Shown here: in pieces, positions 55,676 to 64,000 of the stretch | How positions within the stretch are numbered: the first letter of the stretch is position 1 | Layout of the letters: each line of letters starts with the position of its first letter | Assembly (NCBI GenBank): GCA_945897825.1 | Contig: CAMDGX010000012.1 | Coordinates: 1-64,000, forward strand | From: Asaia bogorensis | Lineage (GTDB): Bacteria > Pseudomonadota > Alphaproteobacteria > Acetobacterales > Acetobacteraceae | Length of the DNA: 64,000 bases | Direction of reading: 5' to 3' | The notes under the pieces: generated by a model | The model's database searches: none | Seen by the model: the letters and a program-made list of their open reading frames with translations, nothing else | Told to the model about the DNA's origin: nothing | Translations under genes and position numbers: made by a program

Positions 55676-57673
55676 CTACACCCCCAGCCCGACCCTGGCG
55701 CGGCGCGCCATCAGCCAGGCAATGCCCAGCGCCGGCACCGTCAGCGCCGCGGCGGCCGAGGTCATCGCGAGCGGATCGAGCGGCATCAGCCCGCCGCCCG
55801 GGGCCGCGAACATCAGCCCGCCGATGATCAGGGCACAGCGGATCGGCCATTCCAGCACGCCGCTGCGGCGGATATCCCCGATGCCCGCGAGATAGCCCTG
55901 CAATCCGCCGCACACCACCGCGACACCGATCAGCGCAGTGACGAAATGCCCGACGAAATCCATGAACTCGCCCTGCAGCACCAGCGAGGGGTTCATCACG
56001 AAGAAGAACGGCACGAAGTAGATGATCGCGCCGATCTTCATCGCCTGCACCCCGGTTTCCATCGGGTTCGACTTCGCGACCGACGAGGCGGCGAAGGCGG
56101 CCAGGGCCACCGGCGGCGTGATGAACGACACCATGCCCCAGTACATGATGAACAGGTGCACCGCGATCGGGTCGAGCCCGACCTTGATCAGGCTCGGCGC
56201 CAGCAGCACCGCGAGGAAGATGTAGCAGGCGGTGATGGTCATCCCCATGCCCAGGATGAAGCTGGTCAGCGCGCCCATCAGCAGCAGCAGGATCGGGTCG
56301 TTGCCGGCCATGAACAGCAGGCTGTTGGTCAGCGTCCCGGTCAGGCCGGTCAGCGAGAAGGCGCCGACCAGCAGGCCGATGCCGCCGAGCACCGCGATCA
56401 ACTCGACGAACAGGCGCCCGTTGGCCTCGATGAACGTCACCACGTCCCCCCAGCCCCAGCGGTGCTTGGAAAACAGCTGGTTGAGCACCAGCAGCAGCCC
56501 GGTGGCCAGCCACGGCGCCCAGTTCTCCCGCTTCATCACCAGCAGCAGCACGACCAGCAGGATGATGACGAAGATGAAGTACCAGCCTTCGCGGAACACG
56601 TCGCGCAGCTTCGGCATGTCTTCCTTCGGCATGCCGACCATGGCATCGCGCCCGGCCAGGCAGTCGATCTGCATGAACAGCGCGAAGTAGAACAGGATCG
56701 CCGGCACCGCCGCGGCCATCGCCACGGTGGCGTAGGAGATGTTCAGGAACTCCGCCATGATGAAGGCGGTCGCCCCCATCACCGGCGGGGCCAGCACCGC
56801 GCCGGTCGACGCGCAGGCCTCGATGGCGCCTGCCGTGGCCGGGCGAAAGCCGGTGCGCTTCATGGCGGGAATGGTCATCGTGCCGGTGGTCAGCACGTTG
56901 GAGATGACGCTGCCGCTCATCGAGCCGAGCAGGCCCGAGGAGAAGATCGCCACCTTGGCCGCCCCGCCGCGCAGATGGCCGCACAGCGCGAAGGCGAAGT
57001 TGATGAAGAACGCGCCCGCGCCGGTGTATTGCAGCGCGGTGCCGAAGATCAGGAAGCCGATCACCAGCTCCGCGAAGGCGCGCATCGGGATGCCGAGCAC
57101 GCTCTCGCGCGAGAAGATGTGGTAGGCGGCCGCCTCCATCAGGTCCACCGACGGCGAGGTCAGCGGTTGCGGCATCATGCCGGAGAACAGCGGGAAGAAC
57201 GAGAACACCGCCATGATGGCGAACAGGATGAACCCGCCCGCCCGCCGCAGCGCCTCGAGCGCCAGGCCCCAGATCATGACCGCCGCCGCCATGATCCAGC
57301 CGGGCGCCACCATGTGCGCGCTGTATTCCCAGCCGGACAGGGCGGATTCGCGGGCGGTGGCGATCAGCCCCACGGTAATCGCGCTGGTCAGCAGGAACAG
57401 CGCGATGTCGTAGAGCGGAACGTGGTCGGAATGCAGCCCCGGCTTGATCGGATACAGGATGAAGGCCAGCGGCAGCAGCAGGCCGACCAGCGCCCAGTAG
57501 TACTCCGTGTCCAGCAGCGTCACGTCCATGAAGAACCGCAACGTGAACTGCTGGTTGAAGCACAGCGCGATCGACAGCAGGGTCCAGCCGATCAGCAGAA
57601 CGCGCCACGATGTGGATAGCTGGCGGAAGCGCGGGCCTTCTTCGACCGGCGCGTCGGCTCCTGCCTCGGACAT
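55676..57673 (-). CDS. TAXI-TRAP transporter fused small/large permease
   Basis: 665 residues with many membrane helices, a fusion of a four-helix DctQ-like N-terminal part and a DctM-like part. SSGLLGSMSGSVISNVLTTGTMTIPAMKRTGF, APPVMGATAFIMAEFLNISY and LGMGMTITACYIFLAVLLAP are the TRAP-TAXI permease signatures (GSxSGS and PPVMGA). It uses a cation gradient to import acidic or amino-acid-like solutes delivered by a TAXI binding protein. It starts 20 bp after the first binding-protein gene. Two binding-protein genes and one permease share the locus. Confidence 0.87.
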   Translation of the reverse strand: MSEAGADAPVEEGPRFRQLSTSWRVLLIGWTLLSIALCFNQQFTLRFFMDVTLLDTEYYWALVGLLLPLAFILYPIKPGLHSDHVPLYDIALFLLTSAITVGLIATARESALSGWEYSAHMVAPGWIMAAAVMIWGLALEALRRAGGFILFAIMAVFSFFPLFSGMMPQPLTSPSVDLMEAAAYHIFSRESVLGIPMRAFAELVIGFLIFGTALQYTGAGAFFINFAFALCGHLRGGAAKVAIFSSGLLGSMSGSVISNVLTTGTMTIPAMKRTGFRPATAGAIEACASTGAVLAPPVMGATAFIMAEFLNISYATVAMAAAVPAILFYFALFMQIDCLAGRDAMVGMPKEDMPKLRDVFREGWYFIFVIILLVVLLLVMKRENWAPWLATGLLLVLNQLFSKHRWGWGDVVTFIEANGRLFVELIAVLGGIGLLVGAFSLTGLTGTLTNSLLFMAGNDPILLLLMGALTSFILGMGMTITACYIFLAVLLAPSLIKVGLDPIAVHLFIMYWGMVSFITPPVALAAFAASSVAKSNPMETGVQAMKIGAIIYFVPFFFVMNPSLVLQGEFMDFVGHFVTALIGVAVVCGGLQGYLAGIGDIRRSGVLEWPIRCALIIGGLMFAAPGGGLMPLDPLAMTSAAAALTVPALGIAWLMARRARVGLGV

Positions 57674-57693
57674 GGGGGGATGACCTTCGCGGG

Positions 57694-58851
57694 CTACTGG
57701 AAGATCACGTCGAGCGAAGCCTTCTCCAGCGCGGCCTTTCGCGCCGCCATCCAGGCGGTGGCGAAGGCGGCGTTGTCGGCCGGGGGATTGGCGCGCATGA
57801 AGCCGGTCCACGCCTCGGCCAGCACCTGCTGGCGCTTCATCAGCATGGCGTTGTGCGCCTCGGCCGCCGGTGTCCAGGCGCCGGCTTCCTGCATCGCCTT
57901 CACCGTGCCGGGGTGGTAAGGCAGCACCCAGGTCAGGTTCTGCCGCTTCAGCTCCAGCCCGTCGGCCCCCGGCGCGCCATCCTTGTAGTCGTTGTAGTTC
58001 ACGATCATCGACTTCGCGATGCCGTGGATCAGGTCGACCGGCTGGGACGCATAGGCCATGAAGATCGGATAGGGATAGGCGTGCAGCTCGATCGGGTTGG
58101 CGGCGGAGATGCCGCCGGCGCCGCAGGTGGTCTTGTGCGGATAGTACCAGGGCCCGACCTTGCTCAGCCGCGCCCATCCCTCCTTGTCGCTGGCCGGCGT
58201 GGGGGGCCACATCAGGCCGCGCGGCGAGGCATCCAGCGCGCGCGCCGGCCCGGAGATGGTCGAGGCGATGGCGGCATCCACCTCGTTGTTGTTCATGCCG
58301 TTCCACATCGCGGCATTGCTGGAGAACTGCACGATGCGCACGTCGCCGATGCCCAGCCCGCCGAATGCCAGGATCGCGAAGGCGTTCTGGTTGAGCGCCG
58401 GCGAGCCGACCACGGTGCCCACCCGCTTGCCGCGCAGGTCCTTCACTTCCTTCACGCCGGCGTCCTTGGCCACGCCCAGTGCGATCGCGTTGCACGACGA
58501 GGCGGAAAGGATCAGCTGCAGCGGCTGCGGCCCCCAGTCGCGGCTGGCGAACTCGTACACCCCTTCCTGCGCGAAATAGCCGCCGATGCCCATGGCCGAG
58601 GCCTGCGCCCGGTTCGACTTCAGGGGTACCAGCCGGGCGATGTCGTTGCCGGCGGGCAGGCCGCGCAGGTCGGTGCCGTGCTTGTCCTTCATCATCTTGC
58701 CGATGGCGACCAGGATGCTGAAGCCGGAGGTGCCGGTTTCATAGGCCGTCATGGTCAGCGAAGCTGGCAGCTTGATGTCCTGCGCGCCGGCGGAGCCAGC
58801 GCCCATGGCGGCGGCCGCAACGGCGCCGGCAACCAGAATCCTGCGAAACAT
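57694..58851 (-). CDS. TAXI family TRAP solute-binding protein, copy 1
   Basis: 385 residues with a Sec signal (RRILVAGAVAAAAMGAGSAGA). The mature start LPASLTMTAYETGTSGFSILVAIGKMM, GNDIARLVP, RVGTVVGSPALNQNAF and NNNEVDAAIASTISGPAR match TAXI binding proteins. It feeds the permease gene 20 bp downstream. It is closely related to a second binding protein about 140 bp upstream, with conserved order throughout. Its ATG is at 58851, with AGGGGG upstream. Confidence 0.87.
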   Translation of the reverse strand: MFRRILVAGAVAAAAMGAGSAGAQDIKLPASLTMTAYETGTSGFSILVAIGKMMKDKHGTDLRGLPAGNDIARLVPLKSNRAQASAMGIGGYFAQEGVYEFASRDWGPQPLQLILSASSCNAIALGVAKDAGVKEVKDLRGKRVGTVVGSPALNQNAFAILAFGGLGIGDVRIVQFSSNAAMWNGMNNNEVDAAIASTISGPARALDASPRGLMWPPTPASDKEGWARLSKVGPWYYPHKTTCGAGGISAANPIELHAYPYPIFMAYASQPVDLIHGIAKSMIVNYNDYKDGAPGADGLELKRQNLTWVLPYHPGTVKAMQEAGAWTPAAEAHNAMLMKRQQVLAEAWTGFMRANPPADNAAFATAWMAARKAALEKASLDVIFQ

Positions 58852-58958
58852 TGGCAATCCCCCTATAGGACCGAAGCCTCGCCTGGCCCGGACTGTTCTT
58901 GTGTGTCGGCTGTTCTGCCGGGCGCCCCGACGAAACGCAAGGCATGGTCCGGCGCGGC

Positions 58959-58983
58959 GCGCCCGGGCCGGAAGCCCGGGCGC
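58959..58983. terminator. Hairpin between the two TAXI binding-protein genes
   Basis: A perfect ten-base GC stem, GCGCCCGGGC and GCCCGGGCGC, with a five-base loop, eight bases after the stop of the upstream (copy 2) gene on its strand. There is no T-run. It would limit read-through and set different levels for the two binding proteins. Confidence 0.5.
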
Positions 58984-58991
58984 CAGGCGCC

Positions 58992-60155
58992 TCAGTTGAA
59001 GATCACCGGCAGGCCTTCCTTGGCCAGCGCCGCGCCGCGGGCCGCGAGCCAGCCGCTGTAGAACGCCGGCTGGTCGGCAGGCGGGTTGGTCTTGAGATAG
59101 GCATCCCACGCCGCCGCCAACACATCCTGGCGCTTCATCAGGCCTTTGTTATGCGCCTCGGCCGCCGGCGTCCAAACGCCCGCCTCGCTCAGCGCCTTCA
59201 CCGTCCCGGGGTGGTAGGGGATCACCCAGGTCAGGTTCTGCCGCTTCGCCTCCAGCCCGTCGATGCCCGGCAGCGAATCCTTGTAGGCGTCGTAGTTCAC
59301 GATCATCGCGCGGGTCACCGCATGGATCAGCTCGGCCGGCTGCGAGGCATAGGTCATCCAGATCGGATACGGATAGAACGGCAACTCCATCGGGTTCTGC
59401 GGCGAAATGCCGCCCGCGCCGCATGTGGCCACATGGCGCGTGTAATACGGCCCGACGGCCGTCAGCCGCGCCCATCCCTCGTTGTCGTTGTTCGGTGTCT
59501 GTGGCCACACCAGCCCGCGCGGCGAAGCGTCAAGCTCGCGCGCCTGGCCGGAGATGGTCGAGGCGATCGCCGCATCCACCTCGTTGTTCACCATCCCCTT
59601 CCACATCGCGCCGAAGGAGGAGAACTCCACCACGCGCATGTCGTCGCGCGTCAGGCCGCCGAAGGCGATCATCGAATAGGCGTTCTGGTTCAGCGCCGGC
59701 GAGCCGATCACCACGCCAAGCCGCTTGCCGCGCAGGTCCTTCATCTCCTTCACGCCGGTATCCTTGGCGACCGCCAGCCCAGCCCCATTGCAGGACATCG
59801 CCGACAGCAGAAGCTGCAGCCGCTGCGGGCCCCAATCGCGCGAGCCGAACTCGTACATGCCCTCGGAGGCGAAGAACCCGCCAATGCCCATCGCCGAAAC
59901 CTGCGCGCGCCCGATCCGCATGGGGGTCAGGCGCGCGATGTCGTTCCCCGCGGGCAGCGCCCGGAGGTCGACATTGTGCTTGTCCTTGAACATCTTGCCG
60001 AGCGCCACGACCATGCTAAATCCGGACGAGCCGGTGTCGTAGGCGGTCATTGTCAACGACGCCGGCAGCTTCGGCTCCTGTGCCATCGCGCCAGGTGCTG
60101 CCAGCAATGCGCCTGCCAGCGCCGCGGCAATGCGAATCGATGCAATGTTGTTCAT
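58992..60155 (-). CDS. TAXI family TRAP solute-binding protein, copy 2
   Basis: 387 residues with a Sec signal ending AAPGAMAQ. The same pattern as copy 1 is seen (LPASLTMTAYDTGSSGFSMVV, GNDIARLTP, GSPALNQNAYSMIAFGG, NNEVDAAIASTISGQARELD), about 60-65 percent identical by eye. It has no permease gene directly attached and is followed by a hairpin. It may bind a related ligand and share the single permease. It is divergent from an M20 amidohydrolase through a 220-bp region. Confidence 0.87.
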   Translation of the reverse strand: MNNIASIRIAAALAGALLAAPGAMAQEPKLPASLTMTAYDTGSSGFSMVVALGKMFKDKHNVDLRALPAGNDIARLTPMRIGRAQVSAMGIGGFFASEGMYEFGSRDWGPQRLQLLLSAMSCNGAGLAVAKDTGVKEMKDLRGKRLGVVIGSPALNQNAYSMIAFGGLTRDDMRVVEFSSFGAMWKGMVNNEVDAAIASTISGQARELDASPRGLVWPQTPNNDNEGWARLTAVGPYYTRHVATCGAGGISPQNPMELPFYPYPIWMTYASQPAELIHAVTRAMIVNYDAYKDSLPGIDGLEAKRQNLTWVIPYHPGTVKALSEAGVWTPAAEAHNKGLMKRQDVLAAAWDAYLKTNPPADQPAFYSGWLAARGAALAKEGLPVIFN

Positions 60156-60375: not shown

Positions 60376-61554
60376 ATGCCCCCGCGCGACCGCATCTGCC
60401 AGTTCCACGACGAAATGACCGCCTGGCGCCGCGATTTCCACGCCCATCCCGAGATCGGCTACGAGGAACACCGCACCAGCGAAATCGTCGCCGCCAAGCT
60501 GGCCGAATGGGGCATCGAGGTGCATCGCGGCCTCGGCGGCACCGGGGTCGTCGGCGTGCTGCGCGGCACCAAGGGCGCCGGCCACGGCAATCGCGCCATC
60601 GGGCTGCGCGCCGACATGGACGCGCTCCCCATGGACGAGGCCAACACCTTCGCCCACCGCTCCACCATCCCCGGCCGGATGCACGCCTGCGGCCATGACG
60701 GCCACACCTCCATGCTGCTGGGCGCGGCCAAATACCTCGCCGAAACCCGCAACTTCTCCGGCACCGTCCACTTCGTCTTCCAGCCCGCCGAGGAGGGGCT
60801 CGCCGGCGCCAAGGCCATGCTGAACGACGGCCTGTTCGAGAAATTCCCCTGCGATGCCATCTACGGCATCCACAATTCGCCCAACGTCCCGCTCGGCCGC
60901 GTGCGCGCCGTCACCGGCACGGCCCTCGCCGCGATCGACTATTTCGTCGTCACCCTGCGCGGCAAATCCACCCACGGCGCCACGCCCCAGAACGGCATCG
61001 ACACCGTCTCGATCGCCGCCCAGGTGATCAACATCATCAACGCCATCCCGTCCCGCCATGTCGACGCGCTCGACTCCGCGATCATCTCCATCGGCATGAT
61101 CCACGGCGGCACCAGCAACATCGTCATCCCCGAAACCGTCGAGATCCGCGGCTCCGTGCGCACCCTCAAGCCCCAGGTCCGCGACCTGGTCGAGGAACTG
61201 TTCCACCGCGGCGTCACCCATTGCGCCGAAGCCCATGGCGGCACGGCGGAGATCGTCTACAACCGTGCCTACCCCCCCACCATCAACACCGCCGCGGAAA
61301 CCGAGCGCGCCGCAATCGCCGCCGGGGCCATCATCGGCGACGCCAATGTCATCCGCGGCGGCCAGCCGATCCTCGCCGGCGAGGATTTCGCCTTCTACCT
61401 GGAGCGCACGCCCGGCGCCTTCCTGCTGTTCGGCCAGGGCGAAGGCGACCGCTTCGCCGTCACCCCGCACAACAGTTTCTACGAGTTCAACGACAACCTG
61501 CTCCCCATCGGGGCCAGCTTCTTCGCGCAGATGGTGGAGCAGGAGCTTGGGTAG
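60376..61554 (+). CDS. M20 family amidohydrolase (hippurate hydrolase-like)
   Basis: 392 residues. WRRDFHAHPEIGYEEHRTS at the start, GLRADMDALPM, MHACGHDGHTSMLLG, FQPAEEGLAGAKAML and GGQPILAGEDFAFYLE contain the metal ligands of the M20D/peptidase dimer family. These enzymes hydrolyse N-acyl amino acids such as hippurate or IAA conjugates. CCCGGAG precedes the ATG. It is convergent with a DUF6065-like gene, and its stop touches hairpin repeat copy D. Confidence 0.87.
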   Translation: MPPRDRICQFHDEMTAWRRDFHAHPEIGYEEHRTSEIVAAKLAEWGIEVHRGLGGTGVVGVLRGTKGAGHGNRAIGLRADMDALPMDEANTFAHRSTIPGRMHACGHDGHTSMLLGAAKYLAETRNFSGTVHFVFQPAEEGLAGAKAMLNDGLFEKFPCDAIYGIHNSPNVPLGRVRAVTGTALAAIDYFVVTLRGKSTHGATPQNGIDTVSIAAQVINIINAIPSRHVDALDSAIISIGMIHGGTSNIVIPETVEIRGSVRTLKPQVRDLVEELFHRGVTHCAEAHGGTAEIVYNRAYPPTINTAAETERAAIAAGAIIGDANVIRGGQPILAGEDFAFYLERTPGAFLLFGQGEGDRFAVTPHNSFYEFNDNLLPIGASFFAQMVEQELG

Positions 61555-61556
61555 GT

Positions 61557-61691
61557 AAGGAAGACGTTCTTTTTTGAAAAAAAGAACCAAAAAGCTTCCA
61601 TCATTTGCACCGTGCCCGACCGTTCAGGCACGACGCAAAGGGATGAAAGTCTTTTTGCTTCTTTTTCTTCAGAAAAAGAAGATTCTTCCTT
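61557..61691. repeat. Three-hairpin A/T element, copy D
   Basis: It fills the gap between the convergent amidohydrolase and DUF6065-like genes, with outer arms AAGGAAG (61557-61563) and CTTCCTT (61685-61691). The DUF6065-like stop lies in the right arm, and the amidohydrolase stop is two bases from the left arm. The left hairpin is GTTCTTTTTT/AAAAAAGAAC and the right is CTTCTTTTTC-TTCA-GAAAAAGAAG. The central region has its own inner stem CGTGCC/GGCACG and an imperfect outer stem (TTTGC...GCAAA, CATC...GATG). Confidence 0.85.
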
Positions 61692-62496
61692 ACTCGCTGT
61701 CCTCCCCCTTGCGCCGCTTGCGCGCCGCCGCAGCATACTGCCCACGCGGGCGCGACTCGGCGACATGCGGCCGGATCACCGTGTCGTAATATTCGTCCCA
61801 GTCCTCGGGCGCGAAGGCCGGCAACCCCTGCGTCACCACGAACCCGTTCTGGGCCGGTTCGTCCAGTGCGATCCGCGGCAGCACCTGCACCTGCATCATC
61901 GGAAAGTTCGGATCGAACTCCACCGGAATGTCGGTGCGCACCAGCTGCATGTTGGTGATCAGCGGCCCGAACCAGCGATCCGTCTCGATGATGCCCTCGC
62001 TCATCACCAGCCCGGCCTTCGGCGGCACGTTGGCCGGCGGACGCACATGCGCGCTCCAGCCCGGCGCCGTGCGCACCATCAGCCCGCTCCACATCTGAAC
62101 CCGGCCAGGCTCGGTCAGCGCCCCCAGGAACGGCGGCCACCAGCCCTTCACCTCGTCGGGCACGTTGGCGTCGAAATACTCGGGAAACCCGGGGACATTG
62201 GCGGTGCTCAGCGGCAGCCATTCCTCATAGCCCGCCGGCCGCCATTTCACCGCGGCACCGTCCCACCACAGCCCGAACCCGATCGGCGGAAACACGTAGT
62301 AGCCAAAGCCCGAGGCCGTCACCACCGGTTCGCAGAACCGGAACGCCCGTGTCGGCAACGTCCCCATCGCCGACTTGTCCGCTCGCTCCGGCGGCCGGGC
62401 CGACGGGATGAGCCGATGGAACAGGATGCGCGGCACGGGCTTGGCGGCCTCATCCTGAGATTGCGGGGTCACCTTGCCGACGGGGGCTTCGCTCAC
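61690..62496 (-). CDS. DUF6065-like protein adjacent to a 14-residue-repeat protein
   Basis: 268 residues from a GTG at 62496 with AGGA upstream. I recognise the family only by a pattern resembling DUF6065: FHRLIPSARPPERADKSA, then RAFRFCEPVVTASGFGYYVFPP and, further on, ETDRWFGPLITN and VQVLPRIALDE. Several aromatic and His/Asp residues are conserved-looking, but no known active site is evident. It ends with a basic tail (AAAARKRRKGEDSE). It is 101 bp downstream of the repeat-protein gene on the same strand, with a hairpin between. A role in recognising or modifying the repeat protein is inference. Confidence 0.62.
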   Translation of the reverse strand: MSEAPVGKVTPQSQDEAAKPVPRILFHRLIPSARPPERADKSAMGTLPTRAFRFCEPVVTASGFGYYVFPPIGFGLWWDGAAVKWRPAGYEEWLPLSTANVPGFPEYFDANVPDEVKGWWPPFLGALTEPGRVQMWSGLMVRTAPGWSAHVRPPANVPPKAGLVMSEGIIETDRWFGPLITNMQLVRTDIPVEFDPNFPMMQVQVLPRIALDEPAQNGFVVTQGLPAFAPEDWDEYYDTVIRPHVAESRPRGQYAAAARKRRKGEDSE

Positions 62497-62530
62497 GACA
62501 ACGATCCTGTTCTAGCGCCAAACACACGAA

Positions 62531-62550
62531 ACCGGGCCAAGGGGCCCGGT
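62531..62550. terminator. Attenuator-like hairpin between repeat protein and DUF6065-like genes
   Basis: A perfect eight-base stem, ACCGGGCC and GGCCCGGT, with a four-base loop, about 48 bp after the repeat-protein stop. On the coding strand it is followed by TTTCGTGTG, a weak tail. This would allow partial read-through and give more repeat protein than DUF6065-like protein. Confidence 0.55.
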
Positions 62551-62597
62551 TCGCTGCATCCTCGGGCGGGGCGATGCCCCACCGCAGTATGGATGGA

Positions 62598-63002
62598 TCA
62601 GAGAGCCGGCGCCATCGCGCCCAGGCGAACCTTCGACCCGCCGAGCGCCGGGCTCATCGCGCCGAGCTGAACCTTCGAGCCACCCAGAGCCGGGCTCATC
62701 GCACCCAGCTGAACCTTCGACCCGCCGAGCGCCGGGCTCATCGCACCCAGCTGCACCTTCGAGCCACCCAGAGCCGGGCTCATCGCACCGAGCTGCACCT
62801 TCGAGCCACCCAGAGCCGGGCTCATCGCGCCGAGCTGAACCTTCGAGCCACCCAGCGCCGGGCTCATCGCACCCAGCTGAACCTTCGAGCCGCCGAGCGC
62901 CGGGCTCATCGCACCGAGCTGAACCTTCGAGCCAGCCAGAGCCGGGCTCATCGCGCCGAGCTGAACCTTGGAAACGGTAGCAATCACGGTGACGTTCGAC
63001 AT
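62598..63002 (-). CDS. Small protein of nine 14-residue repeats (KVQLGAMSPALGGS)
   Basis: 134 residues: an 11-residue head (MSNVTVIATVS), eight full repeats of KVQLGAMSPALGGS (the first has AG for GG), and a truncated ninth, KVRLGAMAPAL. The translated units are nearly identical while the DNA units differ mainly at synonymous positions (Gly, Ala, Leu and Pro codons vary), indicating selection on the protein. There is no Cys and no signal peptide. AAAAGGG precedes the ATG at 63002. Possible roles are a multi-core peptide precursor, a beta-rich surface fibre, or a binding array; none is proven. It is co-directional with the DUF6065-like gene. Confidence 0.78.
   Translation of the reverse strand: MSNVTVIATVSKVQLGAMSPALAGSKVQLGAMSPALGGSKVQLGAMSPALGGSKVQLGAMSPALGGSKVQLGAMSPALGGSKVQLGAMSPALGGSKVQLGAMSPALGGSKVQLGAMSPALGGSKVRLGAMAPAL
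62601..62969. repeat. 42-bp tandem coding repeats, eight full plus one partial
   Basis: Nine contiguous units without spacers (8 x 42 + 33 bp), all in the same frame of the small repeat protein. Units differ from each other by a few third-position changes, so they are not a very recent expansion. The absence of spacers rules out CRISPR. Confidence 0.9.
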
Positions 63003-63298: not shown

Positions 63299-63372
63299 AA
63301 AGTGTAAAAATCGAACGATCATTCCACCATTGCGCGTCCGCCGGGTATGCAGACGTCACGCAATGCGAAAAA

Positions 63373-63399
63373 ACGCCCCACTCCGTGGGAGTGGGGCGT
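63373..63399 (-). terminator. Strong terminator of tldD
   Basis: A perfect twelve-base stem ACGCCCCACTCC/GGAGTGGGGCGT with a three-base loop, preceded by six A on the + strand (T-run on the - strand) and followed by ATTTTT. This is a canonical intrinsic terminator for the leftward tldD transcript, about 120 bp past its stop, and may work both ways. Confidence 0.85.
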
Positions 63400-63518
63400 C
63401 ATTTTTACACTATCACGATGCCGTCACCGGCCACGGCCGCGCTGCCCGGCCGGTTACCGATTCACGCGGGCCTGAAAGCTTTCACGATGCTCCGGCGCCG
63501 CGCTGTCACGCCCGGCCG

Positions 63519-64000
63519 CTATGCCGCGGTGCCGCCCACGGTCAGCCCGCCGAGGCGCATCGTCGGCTGCCCGACCCCCACCGGAACGCCCTGCCCGCTC
63601 TTGCCGCAGGTGCCGATGCCCGGATCCAGCGCCATGTCGTTGGCCACCAGCTCCACCTTGGTCAGCGCATCCGGCCCGTTGCCGATCAGCGTCGCCCCCT
63701 TCACCGGCGCGCCGATCTTGCCGTTCTCGATCAGGTAGGCCTCGCTCGCCGAGAACACGAACTTGCCCGAGGTGATATCCACCTGGCCGCCGCCGAAATT
63801 CACCGCGTAGATCCCCTTGGAGACCGAGCGGATCACCTCGTCCGGCGTCGCCGTGCCGTTCAGCATCACCGTATTGGTCATCCGCGGCATCGGCGCATGG
63901 GCATAGGATTGCCGCCGCCCGTTCCCGGTCGGGCGCACGCCCATCAGCCGCGCATTCAGCCGGTCCTGCAGGAAGCCGGTCAGAATGCCGTCCTCGATCA
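63519..64000 (-). CDS. tldD: Metalloprotease TldD, C-terminal part (truncated by window edge)
   Basis: The frame is open to the window end. It has the TldD/PmbA C-terminal domain: [62 protein letters not shown] and [15 protein letters not shown], ending in the conserved [14 protein letters not shown]. With PmbA it forms a zinc peptidase that processes peptides such as microcins and CcdA. The HExxxH zinc site would lie in the missing N-terminal part. A peptide-processing TldD only about 0.5 kb from the repeat-protein gene is notable. Confidence 0.88.

Follow-up and report, generated by a model that had tools for sequence, protein, structure and literature searches.

Among described systems, the microviridin pair AMdnA/AMdnC resembles the locus reported here in that a single precursor with several near-identical cores is accompanied by a partner gene, and the microviridin enzyme can process one to several such cores (PMC5934393). 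Pairings of a multi-core precursor with an ATP-grasp protein, though known, have been described as rare (PMC5934393). The microviridin partner is a leader-guided ATP-grasp ligase (PMC5934393), whereas in our locus the partner is predicted to adopt a dUTPase fold, no leader is common to the precursors and the conserved motif lies inside the units. In plant peptides of the burpitide type, the core is modified under the guidance of a recognition sequence, much as we propose below; the enzymes there are copper-dependent plant cyclases, for which no sequence relation to our proteins is expected (PMC12186524). TldD/E, a general protease that is often encoded outside the respective clusters and has other functions, removes the leader peptides of some RiPPs (PMC10885120). 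In our literature search, which had most subscription papers outside its scope, DUF6065 and the motif strings were unmentioned, and wider searches gave only analogies. The pairing of peptide and partner, which recurs in many Alphaproteobacteria, appears to be undescribed, so that it may represent a hitherto unrecognized type of system for processing peptides in bacteria.

The repeat-peptide gene and its homologs

The window, that is, the whole 64,000-nt stretch of Asaia bogorensis DNA that was analyzed, carries on its minus strand a gene for a repeat peptide of 134 amino acids (62598-63002; ATG start at 63002, TGA stop at 62600-62598). A head of 11 residues (MSNVTVIATVS; 62970-63002) is followed by eight full 42-base units (KVQLGAMSPAL[A/G]GS; 62634-62969) and by a ninth, terminal unit, KVRLGAMAPAL (62601-62633), whose final Leu is both the last Leu of the motif and the end of the ORF, as in many homologs. 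The peptide thus reads MSNVTVIATVS, KVQLGAMSPALAGS, seven exact copies of KVQLGAMSPALGGS and KVRLGAMAPAL before the TGA. The original prediction of nine tandem units behind an 11-residue head was confirmed, with the refinement that two of the units are variant and that the last is shortened to 11 residues. TRF reported a period of 42, 8.8 copies and 89% matches. The claim that the units differ mostly at silent sites also held: among the eight full units, differences fell at 7 of 14 third codon positions, at 1 of the 14 second positions and at none of the 14 first positions, giving a pS of 0.315, a pN of 0.0082 and a pN/pS of 0.026. It follows from these values that the amino acid sequence in the repeat frame is what is kept, and the repeat units of the window are under strong purifying selection. 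In the wider set of homologs, pN/pS was at most 0.4 in 38 of 39 arrays.

Precursors differed in copy number, some having a single unit and one contig carrying at least 19. Many contigs stop inside the array, so these copy numbers are lower bounds, and one array (G001) was apparently divided between two contigs. The window's 9 units compare with 11, at least 14 and 2 in the precursors of close relatives. Varying spacers give unit lengths of 14, 15, 17-20 or 22-25 residues around a motif that itself stays at about 11-14 residues. The shortest one-unit precursors are ~30 residues long (e.g., MSNIIVAVPPPVVDLGRIRLGSVFRLPAAG), and at many loci the end of the ORF coincides with the last hydrophobic residue of the motif. 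Across 71 distinct units, entropy was lowest at Gly+3 (0.11 bits), Arg+1 (0.65), Val0 (0.82) and Asp-4 (0.89), some of these low values stemming from the pattern used for finding units, and highest at positions +5 (3.01 bits) and +8 (2.97 bits). The Asp of the motif is absent from the window's own units. To judge from the aligned units, this uneven conservation looks like a recognition part joined to a more variable core.

At two loci (L067 and L070), 9-residue VRLGAMSPA units stand back to back without a spacer and alternate with 17-residue units. Other weak repeat matches in relatives (L040, L043, L044, L048 and L050) looked like unrelated low-complexity proteins and were set aside.

Conservation of the pair and its genomic setting

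Downstream of the repeat-peptide gene, on the same strand, lies the DUF6065-like partner gene (61690-62496; 268 amino acids, GTG start). The hairpin that had been noticed ahead of it was located between the two genes at 62530-62551 on the minus strand; it consists of AACCGGGCC-CCTT-GGCCCGGTT, with a 9-bp stem and without a long U tract. In length, the intergenic stem exceeded 95% of shuffles at 43 of 72 homologous loci, its sequence being alike in many of them, and no known RNA family was matched. The hairpin may set the dose of peptide versus partner, and because it lies between the two genes, the partner is probably made at the lower dose.

The partner gene was present in 21 of 60 related genomes searched. 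A scan of GTDB genomes gave 238 relatives of the partner, the best 80 of which were retained and read; with the second copy in the window's genome and two Rhizobium plasmids, 83 loci were read by script. Sufficient upstream sequence was available at 80 of these 83 loci, and in 75 of the 80 evaluable homologs a small ORF encoding the consensus D-x-G-[KR]-[VI]-R-[LF]-G-[GA]-x-x-P-x-[LF], or a sequence very near to it, was found just upstream on the same strand (L124 is included among the 75, though most of its array is masked). As a control, 5688 small ORFs from other parts of these loci were scanned, and 2 had a comparable motif; the pattern used for this control was not identical to the counting pattern. 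The five homologs at which the peptide was missing comprise three members of one clade (L087, L093 and L102), L131, and L094, in which the partner frame is broken at the start of the match. The tree of partner proteins was a quick one with long branches, and flanking genes were called by a simple codon-position rule. The peptide gene and its partner are a conserved two-gene system.

Most hosts belong to the Acetobacteraceae, with Reyranella, Sneathiella and others also represented; among the cultured hosts are Rhodopila globiformis DSM 161, Roseomonas rosea DSM 14916 and Elioraea tepidiphila DSM 17972. The only plasmid-borne pairs were those of two Rhizobium plasmids, pWSM4643_1 and pSRDI969_1, in which a three-unit peptide gene (units D-[AD]-G-[NKR]-V-H-I-A-N-K-S-P-[AM]-F) is followed by a DUF6065 gene, whose product is 42% identical, and by an MFS gene. 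In SRDI969 the MFS gene is intact and overlaps the partner gene; that of WSM4643 is broken. The window's genome itself harbors a second pair on another contig (C143, locus L024), where the precursor has one unit and the peptide ends in VADSGLVRIGAAVGCPAKR. The partner at that locus has the tail RRRRAECPF, and this Cys-Pro ending marks a clade with mostly few-unit precursors.

The 3' part of a tldD gene lies upstream of the peptide gene on the same strand and runs off the window (63519-64000, minus strand). The original prediction had pointed to this gene as a member of a peptide-processing protease family. The likeness to TldD/TldE-dependent RiPP maturation (PMC10885120) consists in this upstream tldD, which recurs at 15 of the 83 loci, with ctaA further upstream at 12, but all represent one syntenic place (ctaA - tldD - cassette) in the Acetobacteraceae. 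No tldD was found at other locations, including 1.5 kb on either side of the C143 copy. Because tldD is confined to the ctaA-tldD position, we downgraded the functional link to synteny: tldD is probably a neighbor by one inherited gene order.

A BTAD-TPR winged-helix regulator (~690 residues), which had not been anticipated, adjoins 36 of the 83 loci and occurs downstream in convergent orientation, upstream in divergent orientation, or upstream on the same strand. The 4.9-Mb genome of the window has five BTAD genes, one of them divergent beside the C143 copy, so that chance adjacency within 4 kb is estimated at ~1% per locus, the loci being related and not independent. MFS genes were seen at 4 loci. 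RiPP enzymes (YcaO, radical SAM, LanM, ATP-grasp, etc.) were absent from the 25 commonest of 98 neighbor families (97 neighbor proteins), and in the families listed the only protease or exporter genes were tldD, at its one syntenic site, and the rare MFS genes.

Elsewhere in the window, an M20 amidohydrolase gene (60376-61554, plus strand; confirmed with Pfam) adjoins genes that resemble, by eye, those of a TRAP permease and of a tandem pair of related TAXI-type solute receptors (55676-60155, minus strand). Two A/T-rich inverted repeats look terminator-like by eye: the first (61560-61690) separates the M20 gene from the DUF6065-like gene convergent with it, and the second (63301-63418) follows tldD.

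Predicted fold and conserved residues of the partner

The partner belongs to the same superfamily as the core DUF6065 family (Pfam PF19541), with which it has Cys55, Asn156, Glu171 and Asn182 in common. The match of the window protein to PF19541 is weak (E 3e-10, 40.3 bits) and exceeds the curated cut-off of 26.6 bits over residues 135-213 only; all 28 aligned partner proteins matched the profile at E values up to 1. Core members score ~300-350 bits, as opposed to 31-40 bits for the two members in the window's genome. None of 29 core-family loci yielded a motif peptide, and another non-trivial repeat frame was present at one of them only. Homologs without a nearby repeat protein, held at the outset to speak against a dedicated pair, are thus the rule in core DUF6065, whereas in the repeat-linked clade 75 of 80 have the peptide.

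An AlphaFold2 model of the partner, built from 28 homologs, had a mean pLDDT of 86. Foldseek gave a best E value of 7.5e-5, and the 50 matches listed were dUTPases except for one bifunctional dCTP deaminase-dUTPase; with VIA-align the matches listed were all dUTPases, and 3ecy_A was aligned with a Z score of 10.9 and an rmsd of 3.0 over 119 residues. The partner is therefore predicted to have the trimeric-dUTPase fold, which, like the regulator, was not foreseen in the original prediction. Compared with trimeric dUTPases (PF00692), the model has a helical insertion and C-terminal helices, and the protein lacks motifs 1 and 5 and any significant sequence similarity. The Pfam search gave no match to PF00692, and an hhalign comparison with dUTPases of the same bacterial group was not significant (probability 0.4%, E 0.16), although its register agrees with the fold, placing GIIETD against GTIDED at motif 3 (G-x-I-E-T-D). 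The patterns for dUTPase motif 1, motif 3 (catalytic Asp and the Tyr that follows it) and motif 5 were each found in 0 of 82 partner proteins, and Glu occupies the position of the motif 3 catalytic Asp in 80 of the 82. A sequence search of the PDB gave no convincing relative.

About 50 columns are kept in at least 96% of the 82 partner proteins, including Cys55, Arg50, Glu167 and Trp136. Since Cys55, Asn156, Glu171 and Asn182 are common to the repeat-linked clade and core DUF6065, they suggest a pocket, whereas Arg50, Glu167, Trp136, Trp175 and others are invariant in the repeat-linked clade only. From this distribution we infer a pocket inherited from DUF6065 to which a peptide-binding surface would have been added in the repeat-linked clade. 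At one locus (L056), five repeats lie in frame with the partner, and we modeled the readthrough product with the stop codon read as Trp, a device that implies no claim of readthrough in the cell. No repeat was docked and the repeats had a pLDDT of 31-38. The model is weak evidence against strong docking in cis, and it would fit an unstructured array to which the partner may still bind.

A phage or defense origin was considered and rejected: no homolog was found in phage records, and PADLOC assigned no family to any of 28 partner proteins tested. The viral PHROGs family phrog_7084 (function unknown) matched three partner proteins (L013, L024 and L028) weakly over much of their length (best E 2e-6), and on this account a phage relative may exist.

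Possible roles of the peptide and its partner

The explanation we tentatively favor, at slightly less than even odds, is an undescribed RiPP-like pair of precursor and maturase with a recognition motif in every unit. The small ORF would be the precursor, each unit offering its own recognition stretch (D-x-G-K-V-R-L-G) ahead of a short, clade-specific core such as GMSPAL, GFAPTL, AIARTL or SVFRLP, with variable spacers; the DUF6065-like protein would bind each unit in turn and modify it, and the BTAD-TPR regulator, where adjacent, would perhaps control the pair. That the repeats are the partner's substrate, that the change is covalent and what becomes of the product are points that we infer. 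Gene order, the tiny precursors, the pattern of repeats and spacers, the hairpin, the regulator and the partner's conservation, which resembles that of an enzyme, all support this explanation, as does the survival of the pairing in hosts as diverged as those of the two Rhizobium plasmids. Against it count the lack of a leader common to all precursors, of any unit residue both strictly invariant and chemically reactive, and of a conserved protease or exporter or a known RiPP enzyme in the listed neighbor families, together with the five homologs without the peptide and the undocked repeats of the L056 model. Of the original suggestion of a precursor and its modifier, the dedicated two-gene cassette stands, given the upstream motif peptides and the selection on them, and the modifier role is the best reading of it. 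A more specific version, in which the partner, having an invariant Cys-Asn-Glu-Asn set instead of the dUTPase signature, modifies every unit of the tandem precursor, perhaps through transfer of a nucleotide or some other activated group, would constitute a new class of peptide modification and is rather unlikely; we know of no precedent for a dUTPase-fold protein that modifies peptides.

The main and nearest rival is a multivalent docking array, in which each unit, as a short linear motif with a K-V-R-L strand, a G-G turn and a hydrophobic-Pro-hydrophobic end, would bind the DUF6065-like trimer without chemistry and so gather trimers or restrain them. Some trimeric dUTPases do bind protein partners (Stl), and trimeric dUTPases, Stl complexes among them, are the nearest folds of the partner. 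A motif that is kept while spacers vary in length and sequence, the existence of one-unit forms, the predicted disorder of the repeats in L056 and the absence of conserved neighbors for export or proteolysis would all suit such an array. The core part of the unit, however, diverges between clades, the partner's invariant residues, a Cys among them, resemble those of an enzyme, a precursor with a single unit would be unable to cross-link, and the L056 model, a weak test, showed no docking; we consider the array possible but somewhat unlikely. Were the units instead released as short signal peptides that the BTAD-TPR regulator sensed as TPR-type peptide receptors do, and were the DUF6065-like protein a processing or immunity factor, the regulator beside 36 of 83 loci in several orientations and the MFS gene in Rhizobium would find a place, and so would the tandem copies, which also occur in some pheromone precursors. 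This is improbable, as no regulator was seen next to more than half of the loci, the window included (many of the contigs being cut short), inspection by eye gave no secretion signal, and BTAD proteins contain TPR-like domains whether or not peptides are involved.

An ordinary dUTPase or nucleotide hydrolase regulated by the repeat peptide would account for the predicted fold, but motifs 1 and 5 are missing in 82 of 82 proteins, the motif 3 Asp is replaced by Glu in 80, neither the Pfam search nor the profile comparison related the partner to dUTPases, and a normal dUTPase is encoded elsewhere in the genome. We rejected this option on the strength of the motifs and the separate dUTPase gene, and it is very improbable. 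Most improbable of all is a repeat protein of structural or adhesive function accompanied by a handler gene, the structural form of which the original prediction had offered as its second option. The repeats are of low complexity and the units near-identical, as such a protein might have them, but many homologs hold one or two units in 30-60 amino acids, which disfavors a fiber or adhesin; no signal peptide was seen by eye; and the matches to YadA and EmaA profiles (E 3e-4 and 0.4) fall far under the cut-offs and are most likely repeat artifacts.

Should the units be modified, as in the favored pair of precursor and maturase, the fold would to our knowledge be new among peptide-modifying enzymes, and the peptides would form a class of multi-core precursors with a recognition motif in each unit and natural members of 1 to about 20 units. 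Should the units only bind, the system would be a motif array by which bacteria assemble a trimeric protein of the dUTPase fold. The small ORFs are readily overlooked, and in many assemblies a contig ends inside the array; under either reading, many genes now annotated as 'hypothetical' or 'DUF6065' (238 relatives in one genome collection) become part of a testable system.
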